DNA of 64,000 nucleotides from Pseudofrankia sp. DC12 (GTDB lineage Bacteria; Actinomycetota; Actinomycetes; Frankiales; Frankiaceae). Positions within the stretch are counted from its first letter, which is position 1. The number at the start of each line of letters is the position of its first letter. Made by a program: the position numbers and the translations under genes. Shown here piece by piece: positions 48,937 through 58,484 of this stretch. The stretch is from the NCBI RefSeq assembly GCF_000966285.1, contig NZ_KQ031391.1, forward strand, positions 1,033,238 to 1,097,237. The letters are read 5' to 3'. The notes under the pieces were generated by a model, which made no database searches, was not told where the DNA came from, and saw only the letters and a program-made list of their open reading frames with translations.

Positions 48937-50100
48937 TCAGCCGCCCGCGGTCCCGCCGGCCTCGTGGTACTCGGCGAGCAGCTGCTCGAACTCCTGCTTG
49001 GTGGTCGCGAACTTCGTCTGGCCGTTCCGCATCGAGACGAAGTAGTTCCACGACCCCGGGCTCGGGTTCAGCGCCGAGGTCAGGGCCAGCTCGCCGGGGT
49101 TCGAGATCGGCCCTGGTGGGAGGCCCTGGATCTCGCGCGTGTTGTACGGGTTGTTCGACGCGAGCTGGCTCTGGGTGAGCGGGCCCTCGTAGTTGTTCTC
49201 GGCGTACCGCGTGGTCGAGTCCATCCCGAGGGTCGGGAAGTGCTTCGGGTCGGCCAGCCGGTTGTAGATGACCCTGGCCGCCATCGGGTACTCGGGCGGG
49301 TTCTTGACTTCCTTCTCCAGGATCGACGCGACGATGACGACCTGGGCCGGGCTGAGGCCGAGCCGGGCCGCCCCGCTCTCCAGGCCGAGGCTGGCCGCCT
49401 TGTCCGAGAACTCGCCGACGAACATCTGCAGGGTCTCCGCCGGGGACGCCTGCGGGTCGAGCTGGTAGGTGTCCGGGAACAGGTAGCCCTCGACCAGGCC
49501 GTTCGCGTAGCTCGGCAGGTCGAGCTTCCCGGCCGGGCTACGCACGATGGCCTCGTAGGCCGCGACCGGCACCCCCAGCCGGCTGGAGAGCTCCCTGAGC
49601 ACCTGCTGGACGGTCTCGCCCTCGGTGATCGTCAACCGCAGGTAGTTGTTGGCCGGGTCGAGCAGCGCGAGGAACGCCTCGTGTGCGCTCATCCGCCTGG
49701 ACAGGTGGTACGAACCCGGCTGGATCCGCTGCGACCGCGGGTCGCTGCGGGCGATGGACAGGAAGGCGCCCGTACTGGCGATCACCCCGGCCTTGTGCAG
49801 CGAGGCCGCGATATCGCTGGAGCTGTCACCGAAGGCCACCTTGACGTTGACCGAGCCCGTGCCGGGGCCGGGATAGTCCTCGGCGGCCTGACCGCCGATC
49901 CGGGGAAGCAGCGTGCCGACGGCGTAGATGCCGCCGCCGAGCAGGGCCGCGACGACGACGAGCAGGACCAGCAGCCTCGTCAGCGCGCCGCGCCGGCGCG
50001 GCCGGCCGTAGTAGTCCGGCTCACCGTCATCCAGATCGTCGTACGAGTTCACCGGCGCTCTTCTGTGGTGAGGGGACCTTGTCGGGAGATGCCCTTCCAT
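48937..50100 (-). CDS. mltG: Endolytic murein transglycosylase MltG (short paralogue)
   Basis: 387 residues. A short cytoplasmic Tyr/Asp/Arg segment, one membrane helix (about 42-62, LLVLLVVVAALLGGGIYA), a LysM-like part with FGDSSSDIAASLHKAGVI, then the YceG catalytic domain. ASILEKEVKNPPEYPMAARVIYNRL holds the EKE motif, whose second Glu I take to be the catalytic one. GLPPGPISNPGELALTSAL and YFVSMRNGQTKFA are family-typical. Thought to end glycan strands during synthesis. ATG at 50100 has GAGG five bases before; a GTG at 50052 is an alternative. Confidence 0.93.
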   Translation of the reverse strand: MEGHLPTRSPHHRRAPVNSYDDLDDGEPDYYGRPRRRGALTRLLVLLVVVAALLGGGIYAVGTLLPRIGGQAAEDYPGPGTGSVNVKVAFGDSSSDIAASLHKAGVIASTGAFLSIARSDPRSQRIQPGSYHLSRRMSAHEAFLALLDPANNYLRLTITEGETVQQVLRELSSRLGVPVAAYEAIVRSPAGKLDLPSYANGLVEGYLFPDTYQLDPQASPAETLQMFVGEFSDKAASLGLESGAARLGLSPAQVVIVASILEKEVKNPPEYPMAARVIYNRLADPKHFPTLGMDSTTRYAENNYEGPLTQSQLASNNPYNTREIQGLPPGPISNPGELALTSALNPSPGSWNYFVSMRNGQTKFATTKQEFEQLLAEYHEAGGTAGG

Positions 50101-50166
50101 GGTCGCCTCGAACCGGGTCCAGGGTCTCCGAAGAGAGGGGAAAAACTCAGGCGGACGGGCCGGAGA

Positions 50167-51108
50167 TCAGCTCTTCGCCGGGGAGAGCGCGTCGAGCGCC
50201 GCGCGACGGGTGAGCGCCCGGGTCCCGGCGGCCAGCAGGACGTCGACCCGCACCGGCCGGCCGGTGAACAGAGCGACCTGCTCGGCGGCCTGGGCCGCGA
50301 GCACGACCATCCCGCCACCGACGCGGGCGCCCGCGCGGTAGGCGGTGACCGCGAGCGCCGTCGGCCAGGGGTGGTAGAGCAGCTCGACGAGCGGGCAGCC
50401 GGCGGGCCAGGCCCATTCGGCGAGCTGGTCGGTCACCCCTGCCGGCGTGGTGGCCACGACGAGGTCCACCCCGCGCGGCAGGCCGCCGGCGACGGTCTCC
50501 CAGGGCAGCGCGACGGCCTCGATCCCGAGCCGCGCACCGATCGCCGTCAGCGGGACGACCGCGGCGGCGCGACGCGCGACCACCCCGACCCGGCGCACCC
50601 CGACGGCGGCCAGCGCCGCGACCGCGGCCCGCGCCGTCCCGCCCGCGCCGAGCAGCAGCGGACGTACCGGCGGCACCGCGGCCACCCCGAGCACCTGGCG
50701 GACGGCGTACCGGATCCCGGCGATGTCGGTGTTGCAGCCGGTGAGCGAGGCGCCCGGCTCGACGACGATCGTGTTCAGTGCGCCGACCGCCTCGACACTC
50801 GCGTCGAGCCGGTCTACCAGCGGCACCGCGGCGGTCTTGAGCGGCATCGTCAGGGACAGGCCGGCCCAGCCCGGCTGTGACCGGACCCGGGCCAGCAGGC
50901 CCGGCAGCCCCGCCTCGTCCGTCTCGATCGCCGTGTAGGACCAGTCGTCCAGCCCGAGCGCCTGGTAGGCGGCCCGGTGCAGCACCGGGGACAGCGAATG
51001 CCCGATCGGCGATCCGAGCACCGCCGCCTGTCGTCCCGGCTGGGCCTTGCCCGGGTCGGACTGTCGCGACCCGGCCCCCGGCGGCCCTGCCGGGACGGGA
51101 TCAGCCAA
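50167..51108 (-). CDS. aroE: Shikimate dehydrogenase
   Basis: NADPH-dependent reduction of 3-dehydroshikimate. 313 residues. Substrate site AVLGSPIGHSLSPVLHRAAYQ, catalytic Lys in LTMPLKTAAVPLVD, NADP loop LLGAGGTARAAVAALAAVG. The TTG at 51108 is supported by GAGGG five bases upstream and is eight bases inside the 3' end of the long mltG gene. It lies between the two mltG paralogues rather than next to aroC. Confidence 0.95.
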   Translation of the reverse strand: MADPVPAGPPGAGSRQSDPGKAQPGRQAAVLGSPIGHSLSPVLHRAAYQALGLDDWSYTAIETDEAGLPGLLARVRSQPGWAGLSLTMPLKTAAVPLVDRLDASVEAVGALNTIVVEPGASLTGCNTDIAGIRYAVRQVLGVAAVPPVRPLLLGAGGTARAAVAALAAVGVRRVGVVARRAAAVVPLTAIGARLGIEAVALPWETVAGGLPRGVDLVVATTPAGVTDQLAEWAWPAGCPLVELLYHPWPTALAVTAYRAGARVGGGMVVLAAQAAEQVALFTGRPVRVDVLLAAGTRALTRRAALDALSPAKS

Positions 51109-53983
51109 CGCCGCCCTCGGCGACGAAGCGGGCGTGCGCCGCCGGCCATTCCGACTCGCTGGCGTAGATCGTGACGTTGGACTTCGGCAGCGCGACGAAG
51201 TAGTACCACGGCTGCCCGTCGCTCCCCTGCGGCCCGGTGTACGGGTGCAGGGCCGAGGTCAGCGCCCAGAGGGCGGGGCTCGCGATGGCGCCCGGCGGCA
51301 GGCCGGTGTGCAGTCGGGTGTTGAACGGGCTGGGATTGTTCAGGTCGCTCTGGGTGAGCGCCCCGGTGGGCTTCTGCACGGCGTACCGGGTCGTCGAGTC
51401 CATGTCGAGCTTCTGGTACTTGCCCGTCTTGTCGTTGAGCCGGTTGTAGATCACCCGGGCGACCTTCTGCCCGTCGTCGATCCGCGGCACCTCCATCTGG
51501 ATGATGGACGCGACGGTGACGATCTGGTCCGGCGTCATCCCGTCCTGCTGCGCGACCGCCTCAAGGTTGATCTTCGCGGCCTGCGCCTTGAACGCGTCGA
51601 TGAACAGGTTCAGCGTCTGCGCGGGGGTCGCCGTCGGGTCGAGGTCGTAGGTGGACGGGAGCAGATAGCCCTCGACGCGCCCGTGCGCGTAGGTCGGCAG
51701 GTCGAGCTTGCCGTCCGGATGGTCGAGGAGGTCCTGGTAGGTCTGCTTCGGCACACCGAGCCGCTGAGAGAGCTCGGTGATCAGGAAGTCGGCCGTCTTG
51801 CCCGGCGCCAGGATGAACCGGTAGATCGAGTTGCCTGAGTCCAGCAGCGCGGCGAGCGCCCCCACCGCGGTCATCTGCTTCTTCAGCCGGTAGGTGCCCG
51901 GCTGGATCTTCCTCGAGTTCGGGTCGTTGGCCGCCGCCGTGATGAACGACTGCCTGCTCTTCACGACGTCGGCCGCGAACAGCGCCCCGGCGATGTCCGT
52001 CGCGGTCGCACCTTGGGCGACCTTCACGTCGGCGCTGCCGGAGCCCGGGCCCGGGTAGTCCGGAATCGCCTTGGAGCCGGTCATCCGGCCGAGCATCTTG
52101 CCGCCGGCGTAGATGCCCCCGCCGAGCAGCACGGCGAGCACCAGCAGCATCGCGACCAGCTTCGGCGCCGCGCGGCGGCGGCGCTGGACGCGCTCGCTGT
52201 GCTCGTCGCGCCGCGGCCGGTCGAACCGGGGGCCGGCGCCCTTCGGCGGGTCCTGCGCACCGTCGTCGAGGTCGTCCAGACCGCTGTCGAGGTGGTCCTG
52301 CTCGCCGGCGAACCTGCCGTTCTGGCTGCGCGCGCCGGCCCTGCTCCGGCGCTGGCCAGCCGCGGGGGCCTGCTCGAACCGGCCACGCGGCTCGTCGGCG
52401 TAGTCCTCGTCGGCCGGCCCGTACAGGTCCTCGGGCGGGTCGATCCGGAAGTTCAGCGCCTCGGTGCGCCGGTCGGTGGGACGACGCCCGCGGCGCGCCG
52501 GACGGGGCGTGCCCTCGCTCGGCGGTGCCGCCGGCGGCGAGACCGCGGCCGGGCCCGGGGGGTCGGCCTGACGACGGGGCCCGGTGCCAGCCGGCCTGAG
52601 CCCGTCGCTGTAGCGCGCCGTCGCGGCCTGGTAGCCGCCGGAGCCCTGCGGGTAGTCCGCGGCCGGGTAGGCCTCGACTCCGGTGGCACTGCCGGCCGTT
52701 CCGAACGCGGCGGCCGTTCCGAACGCGCCGGCCTGGCCACTCGCGTCGTAACCGGCCGGGTCCACCGCGGCCGGGTAGCTCGCTTCGGGGTAGCCGGCCG
52801 GGACGGCGGCCGCGTAGCTGGGGTCCTGCCCGGGCGCCGTCGGCTGCGCCGGAAGCGCGGGCCGGGCGAGGCCGCCGGTCCGCGGGTACGGGTCGGCGAG
52901 GTACTGCTCGGTGGCGTAGCCACCCATTACGGCGTGACCGCCAGTCACGGCCGGCGCCCCGGACGAGTAGCCGGCCTGGTAACCGGCCTGCTGGTCGAGC
53001 GCAGCGGCCTGCCCGTAGCCGCCGGTCTGCTCGATGGCCGGCACCACCTGCTGGTAGCCACTCTGCTCGACCGCCGGCTGGTACCCGCTCTGTTCGACGG
53101 CGGGAACCGCCTGCTGGTAGCCGCCGGTCGAGAACGTGCCGGTCGACGGGTTGACCCCGGTCTGCGGACGACCGGTCTGATAGTCGTAGGCGCCGGCCTG
53201 CGTCTGCTGCCCGAAGGCCTCCGGGTAGCCGACGCCCTGCTGGTAGCCGGTCTGCTGGGCCGCGTCCTGATAGCCGGTGGGGTGCACGGCCTCCTGATAC
53301 CCCGTCTGGGGCACCGGCTCCAGGTAACCGGTCTGGCCGACCGGCTCCAGGTAACCGGTCTGGACCGGCTCCAGGTAACCCGTCGGGTAGCCGGCCTGCT
53401 GGTAGCCAGCCTGGGACGCGCCGTAGCCGGGCGCCGCCGGTCCCGGGCCGCCGTCGGTGTAGCCGAGCGCGGCGTGGTGCCCGGTGGAGGTCTCCGTGTA
53501 GGCGACGGCGCTGCCGTCGGCGCCGCTGGCCGCGGCGTCACCGAGGTAGGGGCCGCCGACATAGGGTGCCCCGACCGCCGGACCGGGGATGTCATACCCG
53601 CTGGGTGCCTCGGGCGCCTGGTCGCTGGGCCAGGCCCCGGTTCCCGCGCCGAAGAAGGCAGCCGTGGTGTCACGGTAGCCCGGCCCCGAGCCGGCCGTGG
53701 GCGACGCGGCCGGGGGGTAGCCGCTGGCGGCATAGCTCTGGTCACCGACGGTGAACGCGTCGGCGCCGTACCCGCCGCCGGCCGCCGGGTAGGCGCCAGT
53801 CGGGCCACCGGGGGATCCGCCCGGAACCGGGCCACCGCCGACGGAGATGTCGGCCCCGTCGTCAGGCGAACCGACCGCGAACGGGTCTACCGGGCGTGCG
53901 CCCGTGCGGTGCGCGGCCCACGGGTCGTTCCCGTATCCGGCCGTGCCCCCGACACCGTTGTCGAGGTCCCAGTGCTCGCTCAC
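51101..53983 (-). CDS. MltG-family murein transglycosylase with ~600-residue Tyr/Gln-rich cytoplasmic tail
   Basis: 960 residues, more than twice the family norm. Residues 1-400 or so are low-complexity and rich in Tyr, Gln, Gly and Pro, with QTGYLEPV, EQSGYQ and similar repeats; 400-600 are Pro/Arg/Asp-rich; a membrane helix lies near 605-627 (LVAMLLVLAVLLGGGIYAGG). The YceG domain follows (about 650-955), with KVAQGATATDIAGALFAADVV and VASIIQMEVPRIDDGQKVARVIYNRL. Here the EKE motif reads QME: the second Glu remains. The N-out tail is on the cytoplasmic side. Second MltG of the window; upstream of aroE and overlapping ruvX. Confidence 0.88.
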   Translation of the reverse strand: MSEHWDLDNGVGGTAGYGNDPWAAHRTGARPVDPFAVGSPDDGADISVGGGPVPGGSPGGPTGAYPAAGGGYGADAFTVGDQSYAASGYPPAASPTAGSGPGYRDTTAAFFGAGTGAWPSDQAPEAPSGYDIPGPAVGAPYVGGPYLGDAAASGADGSAVAYTETSTGHHAALGYTDGGPGPAAPGYGASQAGYQQAGYPTGYLEPVQTGYLEPVGQTGYLEPVPQTGYQEAVHPTGYQDAAQQTGYQQGVGYPEAFGQQTQAGAYDYQTGRPQTGVNPSTGTFSTGGYQQAVPAVEQSGYQPAVEQSGYQQVVPAIEQTGGYGQAAALDQQAGYQAGYSSGAPAVTGGHAVMGGYATEQYLADPYPRTGGLARPALPAQPTAPGQDPSYAAAVPAGYPEASYPAAVDPAGYDASGQAGAFGTAAAFGTAGSATGVEAYPAADYPQGSGGYQAATARYSDGLRPAGTGPRRQADPPGPAAVSPPAAPPSEGTPRPARRGRRPTDRRTEALNFRIDPPEDLYGPADEDYADEPRGRFEQAPAAGQRRSRAGARSQNGRFAGEQDHLDSGLDDLDDGAQDPPKGAGPRFDRPRRDEHSERVQRRRRAAPKLVAMLLVLAVLLGGGIYAGGKMLGRMTGSKAIPDYPGPGSGSADVKVAQGATATDIAGALFAADVVKSRQSFITAAANDPNSRKIQPGTYRLKKQMTAVGALAALLDSGNSIYRFILAPGKTADFLITELSQRLGVPKQTYQDLLDHPDGKLDLPTYAHGRVEGYLLPSTYDLDPTATPAQTLNLFIDAFKAQAAKINLEAVAQQDGMTPDQIVTVASIIQMEVPRIDDGQKVARVIYNRLNDKTGKYQKLDMDSTTRYAVQKPTGALTQSDLNNPSPFNTRLHTGLPPGAIASPALWALTSALHPYTGPQGSDGQPWYYFVALPKSNVTIYASESEWPAAHARFVAEGGVG
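53313..53387. repeat. Three 24-bp direct repeats in the long mltG gene
   Basis: ACCGGCTCCAGGTAACCGGT-type units at 53313, 53340 and 53364, the first two separated by three bases. They encode QTGYLEPV copies on the minus strand. Diverged copies extend over 53040-53420. Confidence 0.85.
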
Positions 53984-57227: not shown

Positions 57228-57253
57228 CGGTTTCTCACGTCGTCCAGAGTCGA

Positions 57254-57348
57254 GGTTGCAGCGGGCAGGCAGGGTTGCGGCGGGGCAGCCAGGTTGCGGT
57301 GGGGCAGCCAGGTTGCGGTGGGGCAGCCAGGTTGCGGCGGGCAATGCC
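57254..57348. repeat. Five 19-bp tandem units in the alaS leader
   Basis: Units of GGTTGCGGTGGGGCAGCCA at 57292 and 57311 are identical, with near copies at 57254, 57273 and 57330. They begin 26 bases upstream of the alaS ATG, so the array is probably transcribed. Unit length is not a multiple of three, consistent with being non-coding. Confidence 0.9.
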
Positions 57349-57770: not shown

Positions 57771-58277
57771 CTAGCGGCCCCGGACCGGCTCGTCGACGTC
57801 GGTGCCGGTCGGCTGCGCCGGCGCCGTCGCGCGCCGGGCCCGCCTGGCCGACGTCTTCTCCGCCTTCATCTCGGCCTCCACCCGGGAGCTGACCTCGGCG
57901 CGGGCCCGCTTCGAGGCCGCCTGGCGGACGCCATAGGAGAAGGCCGCGACCCGCACGATCGGCCCGCCGATGGTCGCCGCGAACAGCGACGACATCGACG
58001 ACACGTTGGTGGTGATCGTCTGGACGTTCTCCGTGATCGCGTCGATCCGGTCCAGCTCCTTGTTCACGTGCGCGAGCGCGACGTTGACCTCGTCGACGGT
58101 CGCGCCGGCCTGGCGGACCCGCGCGGTGCCCTCGTCGATGGCGATGCCGGTCTGGCGGACCCGGGCGGCGGTCTCGTCGAAGATCTTGCCCAGCTTGTAG
58201 AGGGCGTAGCAGCCGAAGAGGACGAGCACCGCGAAGGCACCCGACGCGATCAGGCCGGCCATCGCGCCAGCGGACAT
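57771..58277 (-). CDS. DUF948-family membrane protein
   Basis: 168 residues. One N-terminal membrane helix (GLIASGAFAVLVLFGCYALYKL, about 8-29), a long helical region with heptad-like spacing (about 30-110), a second weakly hydrophobic patch, and a basic Lys/Arg tail. Resembles DUF948 proteins of the alaS region. ATG at 58277 with GGAGG nine bases upstream; a GTG six bases earlier is too close to that site. Paired with the following small protein; function unknown. Confidence 0.78.
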   Translation of the reverse strand: MSAGAMAGLIASGAFAVLVLFGCYALYKLGKIFDETAARVRQTGIAIDEGTARVRQAGATVDEVNVALAHVNKELDRIDAITENVQTITTNVSSMSSLFAATIGGPIVRVAAFSYGVRQAASKRARAEVSSRVEAEMKAEKTSARRARRATAPAQPTGTDVDEPVRGR

Positions 58278-58315
58278 CGTCACGCGCCTCCAATGCGGGG
58301 TCGGCCGGTACCTGG

Positions 58316-58386
58316 CCGGCCAGTGCCTTACCGGCCAGTGCTGTGCCGGCCAGTGCTGTGCCGGCCAGTGCTGTGCCGGCCGGTGG
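58316..58386. repeat. Four and a half 15-bp tandem units upstream of the DUF948 gene
   Basis: CCGGCCAGTGCTGTG at 58331, 58346 and 58361, a variant at 58316 and a partial copy at 58376. Lies between rarA and the DUF948 gene, about 40 bases before its start. Confidence 0.9.
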
Positions 58387-58484
58387 TCACCGCCGGGGTC
58401 GGCCCGGACCGCGAACACCGGTCGTGAGAGGACCTTACCGACCGGACGGGCCTCAGCACGGCATGGCCCGCAGACCAGGTCGTG

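Follow-up and report, generated by a model that had tools for sequence, protein, structure and literature searches.

The window, a stretch of 64,000 nucleotides of Pseudofrankia sp. DC12, contains two genes for the transglycosylase MltG, one on either side of aroE, and one of them (mltG_L) encodes an exceptionally long N-terminal tail. MltG itself, its fold, its neighbours and the presence of two copies are ordinary; a Tyr-rich tail of this length that bears conserved motifs and is kept across the genus is unusual. Our preferred reading, to which we give an even chance, is that mltG_L encodes an active MltG whose cytoplasmic part is a disordered tether with conserved motifs, which would place the enzyme at growth sites, and that the second gene (mltG_S) would supply an untethered copy. 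It builds on the gene arrangement, orthology, the catalytic Glu, purifying selection, predicted disorder and conserved islands presented here.

Two MltG paralogues around aroE

The genes of the locus lie on the minus strand in the order alaS-ruvX-mltG_L-aroE-mltG_S-pilD-aroC, followed by aroK and aroB, with pilD standing for a prepilin-peptidase-like gene. A profile scan identified aroE, ruvX and the peptidase gene; alaS and the other aro genes are our own assignments from the sequence. The genes and domains that concern us are the following:

51101-53983, minus strand: mltG_L, a 960-residue MltG with a giant N-terminal tail (open reading frame, PF02618, orthologues)
50167-51108, minus strand: aroE, shikimate dehydrogenase (profile scan)
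48937-50100, minus strand: mltG_S, the short MltG paralogue (387 residues as listed)
52094-52168, minus strand: transmembrane helix of mltG_L, residues 606-630, preceded by RRRR (hydropathy and AlphaFold helix)
51161-52027, minus strand: YceG domain of mltG_L (PF02618; model pLDDT mostly >90; nearest solved structure 8yoa)
48979-49845, minus strand: YceG domain of mltG_S, with ILEKEV (putative catalytic Glu264, counted from the ATG at 50100)

The GTG start of mltG_L overlaps the stop of ruvX by 4 bases and has a GGAAG just upstream, as read by eye. With a start at the TTG at 51108, aroE would share 8 bases with the end of mltG_L. Translation of mltG_S from the ATG at 50100 gives 387 residues, and from the GTG at 50052 it gives 371. 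The GTG is probably the true start, since it coincides with the first in-frame start of the two sister species (G001 and G002); the short copies of these species begin with VNSYDDLDD, which mltG_S of the window also has at GTG 50052. A scan for promoters and terminators found none. Elsewhere in the window, a 19-bp repeat array of 4.8 copies (57253-57343), possibly an intergenic element, lies at the listed 5' end of the alaS ORF. Close to the beginning of a small minus-strand ORF (57771-58418), a 15-bp repeat of 4.7 copies (58315-58385) translates into repeated WPAQH.

Both proteins score well above the cut-off of 32.4 for YceG (PF02618), with 198 bits for mltG_L and 238 bits for mltG_S, as well as above that of 103.4 for TIGR00247 (109.5 and 139.9, respectively), and they are the only YceG matches in the 6.88-Mb genome. 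In the structure search, the model of mltG_L matched 8yoa with E 2.1e-20 and TMt 0.71, which is the MltG fold, and mltG_S matched it with E 4.6e-22; 8yoa is the best solved match for both. The pair of MltG paralogues around aroE that the original prediction had described is thus borne out by the YceG ORFs at these coordinates. Its doubt as to whether mltG_S might be an assembly artefact can be set aside, because G001 and G002 have copies with 86-88% identity at the same position.

In mltG_L, ~608 residues precede the only predicted membrane helix (606-630), which is followed by the YceG domain, and a positive cluster lies on the N side of the helix. MltG has an N-in topology. Given this topology and the Arg cluster before the helix, the tail would face the cytoplasm and the enzyme would lie outside.

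The long tail is independent of the duplication

A YceG match is present in 33 of the 35 genomes of the family, and two matches occur only in G000, G001 and G002, all of this genus; the short copy is thus found in three of the eight Pseudofrankia genomes. In the other five (G003-G007), the pilD-like gene comes after aroE without an intervening second mltG, and the single mltG lies between ruvX and aroE wherever ruvX is visible. The four congeners with one intact mltG (G003-G006) have tails of 576-698 residues, and in G007 the tail is cut by the contig end. Judged by gene order, mltG_L occupies the usual ruvX-mltG-aroE place of the family, the additional gene being the short copy. Because the long form sits in the usual place and is present in congeners with a single mltG, the long tail is independent of the duplication. 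The original claim that the long form was a product of the duplication thus finds no support in these congeners; the accompanying claim, that the paralogues arose by duplication in this lineage, agrees with the trees and with the N-terminal half of the domain.

A phylogeny of both YceG domains had been suggested as a check. In the YceG tree, the three short copies form a clade beside the eight long copies; the group of 11 has support of 97/94, and in a second tree it has 96/93 and the long clade 99/99. With the N-terminal half of the domain, the 11 Pseudofrankia copies group at 100/98, and the C-terminal half hardly resolves the paralogues and has signs of recombination. A duplication confined to the ancestor of G000-G002 is disfavoured (p-AU 0.008 for the whole domain, weaker on the halves with 0.069 and 0.047). 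A single clade of the short copies and the other Frankiaceae, as transfer would give, is not significantly disfavoured on the whole domain (p-AU 0.09). On these trees, the simplest history would be a duplication at the base of Pseudofrankia that left out the distal tail, after which the other branch lost its short copy.

From the stems of the tree and the lower Pfam scores, it had seemed possible that the long YceG domain evolves faster where both copies are kept; this idea was rejected, as 20 relative-rate comparisons gave no significant result (smallest p 0.076). It was also observed that mltG_L of G005 (L037) is a mosaic gene relative to those of L035, L036 and L038: its residues 861-910 are nearer to G004 (44/50) than to G003 (31/50), and its residues 911-960 are nearer to G003 (43/50) than to G004 (33/50), which points to recombination within the genus inside the YceG domain.

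Composition and conservation of the tail

The ORF, the repeats and the Tyr/Gln content all agree with the earlier description of a 960-residue protein with repeat-rich first ~600 residues. Of the 608 tail residues, 42 are Tyr (6.9%) and 7.2% are Gln, compared with 2.1% Tyr and 2.6% Gln in seven other proteins of the window; Gly makes up 16.9% and Lys 0.3%. The tail has 26 Gly-Tyr and includes an Arg-rich stretch ahead of the membrane helix. Tandem repeats with a 27-bp period are located at 53260-53384 and 53043-53098, and the sequence of the Tyr/Gln repeats is poorly conserved between deep lineages. AlphaFold gives a pLDDT of <50 across nearly all of residues 1-604 and mostly >90 for the enzyme. 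The tail is thus probably disordered, which is a prediction, since the AlphaFold alignment took in just six tails, all of Pseudofrankia. The features of the tail are the following:

53043-53384, minus strand: Tyr/Gln repeats, partly with a ~9-residue (27-bp) period (QTGYLEPV, EQSGYQ; tandem-repeat scan)
53834-53983, minus strand: N-terminal island, residues 1-50 (WDLDNGVGG ... DPW ... RPVDPFAV; 26/50 identical in 7/7 intact Pseudofrankia MltG_L)
52874-52894, minus strand: island DPYPRTG, residues 364-370 (7/7 residues identical in 7 proteins)
52421-52474, minus strand: island DRRTEALNFRIDPPEDLY (RRTEAL segment), residues 504-521 (11/18 identical in 7 proteins)

Across the seven intact long forms, 90 of the 608 positions of the tail are invariant. 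When the conservation flags were shuffled 20000 times, a count of 26 within the first 50 positions was never reached, in a comparison among seven proteins that are not independent. The repeat region 201-340 has 0-3 conserved positions per 20 across deep lineages. All seven intact Pseudofrankia tails contain 32-46 Tyr, of which only five are at positions identical in all of them (72, 199, 238, 366 and 521). What is conserved in these alignments is therefore not the Tyr repeats but the three islands and the overall Tyr content. When a profile of residues 1-50 was run on the 35 family genomes, with at most 150 candidates scored per genome, only the seven MltG_L proteins had E<0.001; the next match was at 0.0075, and the many weak ones are presumably due to chance. 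The search for a relative of the tail elsewhere in the genome returned only mltG_L itself at E<=0.001.

The dN/dS values were calculated by NG86 for six pairs overall, with G000 versus G001 as the main pair. In the main pair, mltG_L has values of ~0.33 for the first 60 residues, 0.35 for the mid-tail, 0.49 for the 100 residues before the helix and ~0.21 for the helix plus YceG, and the short copy has 0.36. The six pairs range from 0.24 to 0.63 for the mid-tail and from 0.21 to 0.62 for the helix plus YceG, where the 0.62 comes from G004 versus G005, the pair with the mosaic gene; the most distant pair, G000 versus G003, has a high dS and a mid-tail identity of 43%. All parts of both genes are under purifying selection, which is mostly weaker on the tail.

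MltG tails and copy number in other actinobacteria

Two YceG genes were counted by hand in 37 of the 295 genomes of the class: 3/29 in this family, 9/30 in f17 and 25/30 in f18, where by tree f17 includes Streptosporangiaceae and f18 Streptomycetaceae (one genome each). Tails were measured from the first in-frame ATG or GTG unless a conserved start was used, and some of the following lengths are therefore too long: 576-698 for the long forms of Pseudofrankia (n=7), 40-299 with a median Tyr content of 5.9% for the other Frankiaceae (n=23; G010 and G013 are excluded, their frames running on upstream), 187-343 with a median of 8.05% Tyr for Streptomyces (n=14, including G051), and 20-178 with a median length of 45 and a median of 0% Tyr for the Streptosporangiales (n=15). 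Some members of f17 have Arg/Glu-rich tails of several hundred residues. In G035 and G101, open frames of great length were rejected as tails; by eye, they look like overlap with upstream genes. Since tails are Tyr-rich in Frankiaceae and Streptomyces and Tyr-poor in Streptosporangiales, a Tyr-rich tail is not the rule for hyphal actinobacteria, and a long tail is dispensable for hyphal growth because other hyphal actinobacteria manage with short ones.

A [D/E/N]LD motif near the N-terminus is present in 36 of 99 actinobacterial MltGs, compared with 1.8 expected from shuffled tails, a count that omits proteins with open 5' ends, includes related ones and uses a pattern chosen post hoc. It occurs in tails of 40 and 600 residues alike, and the 63 proteins without it include all those of Streptomyces, where a different cap is present. 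Because the pattern is post hoc, the proteins are related and Streptomyces does not have it, we regard this statistic as a lead. The Streptomyces cap, MTEYGRGxGSEPWHPEDPLYGD or near variants, was found in 13/13 named loci (L058, L075-L077, L079-L081, L083, L085, L086, L088, L089 and L091), and these proteins have Tyr/Gln-rich stretches before the helix, some with TGEY or PYAQD repeats. The probable streptomycete G051 has a second YceG protein of ~297 residues (L050:4870-5760) away from the ruvX-aroE locus, whose match begins at profile position 68. In filamentous actinobacteria, MltG might repeatedly have become tethered through a docking motif on a Tyr-rich tail that is selected for the number of stickers over their sequence, a generalization that we consider doubtful.

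Possible roles of the tail

Under the reading that we prefer, mltG_L would be the vertically inherited MltG of the lineage, an endolytic transglycosylase anchored in the membrane that would cut nascent glycan strands with the YceG domain on the outer side. Its cytoplasmic part of ~608 residues would be a disordered tether that has three conserved motifs, the N-terminal one for docking, as well as numerous Tyr contacts, and that would recruit the enzyme to, or hold it at, sites of wall synthesis (the hyphal tip or the septum) via cytoplasmic partners. The added copy of the Pseudofrankia lineage, mltG_S, would comprise the enzyme and the helix, preceded by a short juxtamembrane segment, and would supply the same activity in an untethered form. 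The activity, topology, docking and localisation of MltG_L are thus what we infer. This proposal has to be weighed against the short tails with which other hyphal actinobacteria manage (median 45 in Streptosporangiales) and against the fast evolution of the mid-tail, which filler might also have. In the open-licence PMC literature, we found no partner, localisation or activity of a Frankiaceae MltG, and its titles and abstract openings contained nothing on the MltG tail of Frankia or Streptomyces.

It is also conceivable, but unlikely in our view, that the tail serves as a phospho-switch, by which a Ser/Thr kinase of the PknB/PASTA type would alter the activity or placement of MltG. According to PMC12369325, the PASTA kinase IreK phosphorylates E. 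faecalis MltG in a cytoplasmic segment that is predicted to be disordered, and this phosphorylation, which needs T20, has a phenotype in that it affects cephalosporin resistance; in general terms, this makes a kinase target plausible. In the Pseudofrankia tail, Thr369 and Thr507 each fall within a different one of the three conserved islands, and Thr467 is conserved as well, but Ser and Thr (5.3% and 6.1%) are hardly enriched over the proteins of the window (4.6% and 5.0%), and the word MltG is absent from the main texts of two papers on Streptomyces kinases and phosphoproteomes.

The middle of the tail could instead be low-complexity filler that arose by slippage of the 27-bp repeats and is tolerated, with the ends alone being important. 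This would fit the presence of the tandem repeats, the very few positions that deep lineages keep in block 201-340, and mid-tail dN/dS values that reach ~0.6 in more distant pairs. We think it improbable, as the mid-tail dN/dS is ~0.24-0.38 in four of the six pairs, a conserved island lies inside the mid-tail, and the length (576-698) and the Tyr number are similar across seven species.

Another alternative is that the tail is a multivalent region with Tyr stickers, similar to that of FUS, which would gather the enzyme into membrane-associated condensates at growth zones. The abundance of Tyr and Gly-Tyr together with the Arg-rich stretch ahead of the membrane would suit such a region, as would a Tyr number that stays within 32-46 over seven species while just five positions are invariant, and the Tyr-rich tails of Streptomyces and other Frankiaceae. 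However, composition by itself is no proof of phase separation, and the Streptosporangiales tails do without Tyr; we hold this alternative to be decidedly unlikely.

Catalytic residues

51491-51493, minus strand: codon of the putative catalytic Glu831 of mltG_L, the third residue of QME (maps to M. abscessus Glu307)

As described in PMC11533991, the predicted catalytic residue of M. abscessus MltG is Glu307, with Phe332, Tyr392, Phe393, Val394 and Phe404 nearby. A single offset of 84 places all six residues correctly on chain 8yoa (hand count), where Glu307 is the last letter of QRE, so that a first-position Gln exists in a solved MltG. The E218Q variant of E. coli MltG is inactive (PMC8135044), and E218 would match the same catalytic position if chain 2r1f ends at residue 340. 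In 140 aligned YceG domains, from Actinomycetota and others and with related ones included, the second Glu of EKE is invariant; at the first position, 80 have E, 56 have Q, two have A, one has N and one has D. Of the 33 positions that are at least 90% conserved, mltG_L departs at two (Tyr to Phe and Phe to Tyr) and mltG_S at none. The catalytic Glu, Tyr-Phe-Val and an aromatic residue at 404 are present in both paralogues, and Phe332 is replaced by Met in both, as in other Frankiaceae.

The original prediction had pointed out that the long form has Gln where EKE has its first Glu. The substitution is there (Gln829, compared with Glu262 in mltG_S), but a functional meaning for it finds no support, given how common Gln is among these domains and that the solved M. 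abscessus enzyme has it. Within the genus, Gln829 is confined to the long forms of G000-G002, and G003-G007 have E. These comparisons indicate that the catalytic residue is the second Glu of EKE and that a Gln at the first position entails no loss of catalysis. That mltG_L is a pseudoenzyme through this Gln is so improbable that we dismiss it: the restriction of Gln829 to G000-G002, whose long forms have the lowest YceG scores of the family (202-211 bits), would be in its favour, but Glu831 is kept, only the neighbouring variable position is Gln, and the long domain has no significant excess of change (relative-rate p 0.08-1.0, 12 comparisons). By their residues, both paralogues look like working enzymes.

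Comparison with known systems

The tail bears on how polar-growing bacteria place the cutting of glycan strands. If the enzyme encoded by mltG_L is tethered as proposed, the docking motif and the tail would link this cutting to a cytoplasmic scaffold of the growth zone, and Pseudofrankia would be an extreme case in which nature allows strand cutting with and without a tether to be compared side by side, with a tailed and an untailed enzyme within one cell. The Pseudofrankia tail, with its Streptomyces analogues, is a defined protein piece that can be deleted, swapped or used as bait.

The helix, the YceG domain, the catalytic Glu and the fold of MltG/YceG proteins such as those of E. coli (2r1f), M. 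abscessus (8yoa) and L. monocytogenes (Lmo1499, 4iiw) are common to both paralogues. Compared with these, mltG_L adds the 608-residue Tyr/Gln/Gly-rich N-terminal tail, and there are two genes around aroE here. The MltG of S. pneumoniae is reportedly bound by EloR. Control of MltG from the cytoplasm, by morphogenesis proteins (EloR in S. pneumoniae and DivIVA in S. suis) or by phosphorylation of the disordered segment in E. faecalis, is a precedent for the proposed tether: in PMC10269899, DivIVA of S. suis binds MltG and alters its localisation, and the discussion of that paper states that EloR can interact with MltG. E. faecalis MltG is similar to mltG_L in having an extended, predicted disordered cytoplasmic N-terminus; its reported phosphorylation sites (PMC12369325) are within T20-T77, whereas the tail of mltG_L is far longer and Tyr-rich.

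The Streptosporangiaceae (L048, L053, L055, L057 and L062) have a neighbouring mltG pair, as is the case here, and the pair of L048 also adjoins ruvX and aroE. The two copies of the Streptosporangiaceae pairs form congruent clades. Unlike the pair described here, theirs come from a separate duplication and have short tails with little or no Tyr, and in L048 both copies are located between ruvX and aroE. The MltG of Streptomyces has the same layout as mltG_L, with a conserved N-terminal cap, a Tyr-rich low-complexity stretch, the helix and YceG. However, its tail has only 187-343 residues and its cap is different, and we treat the two tails as analogues.
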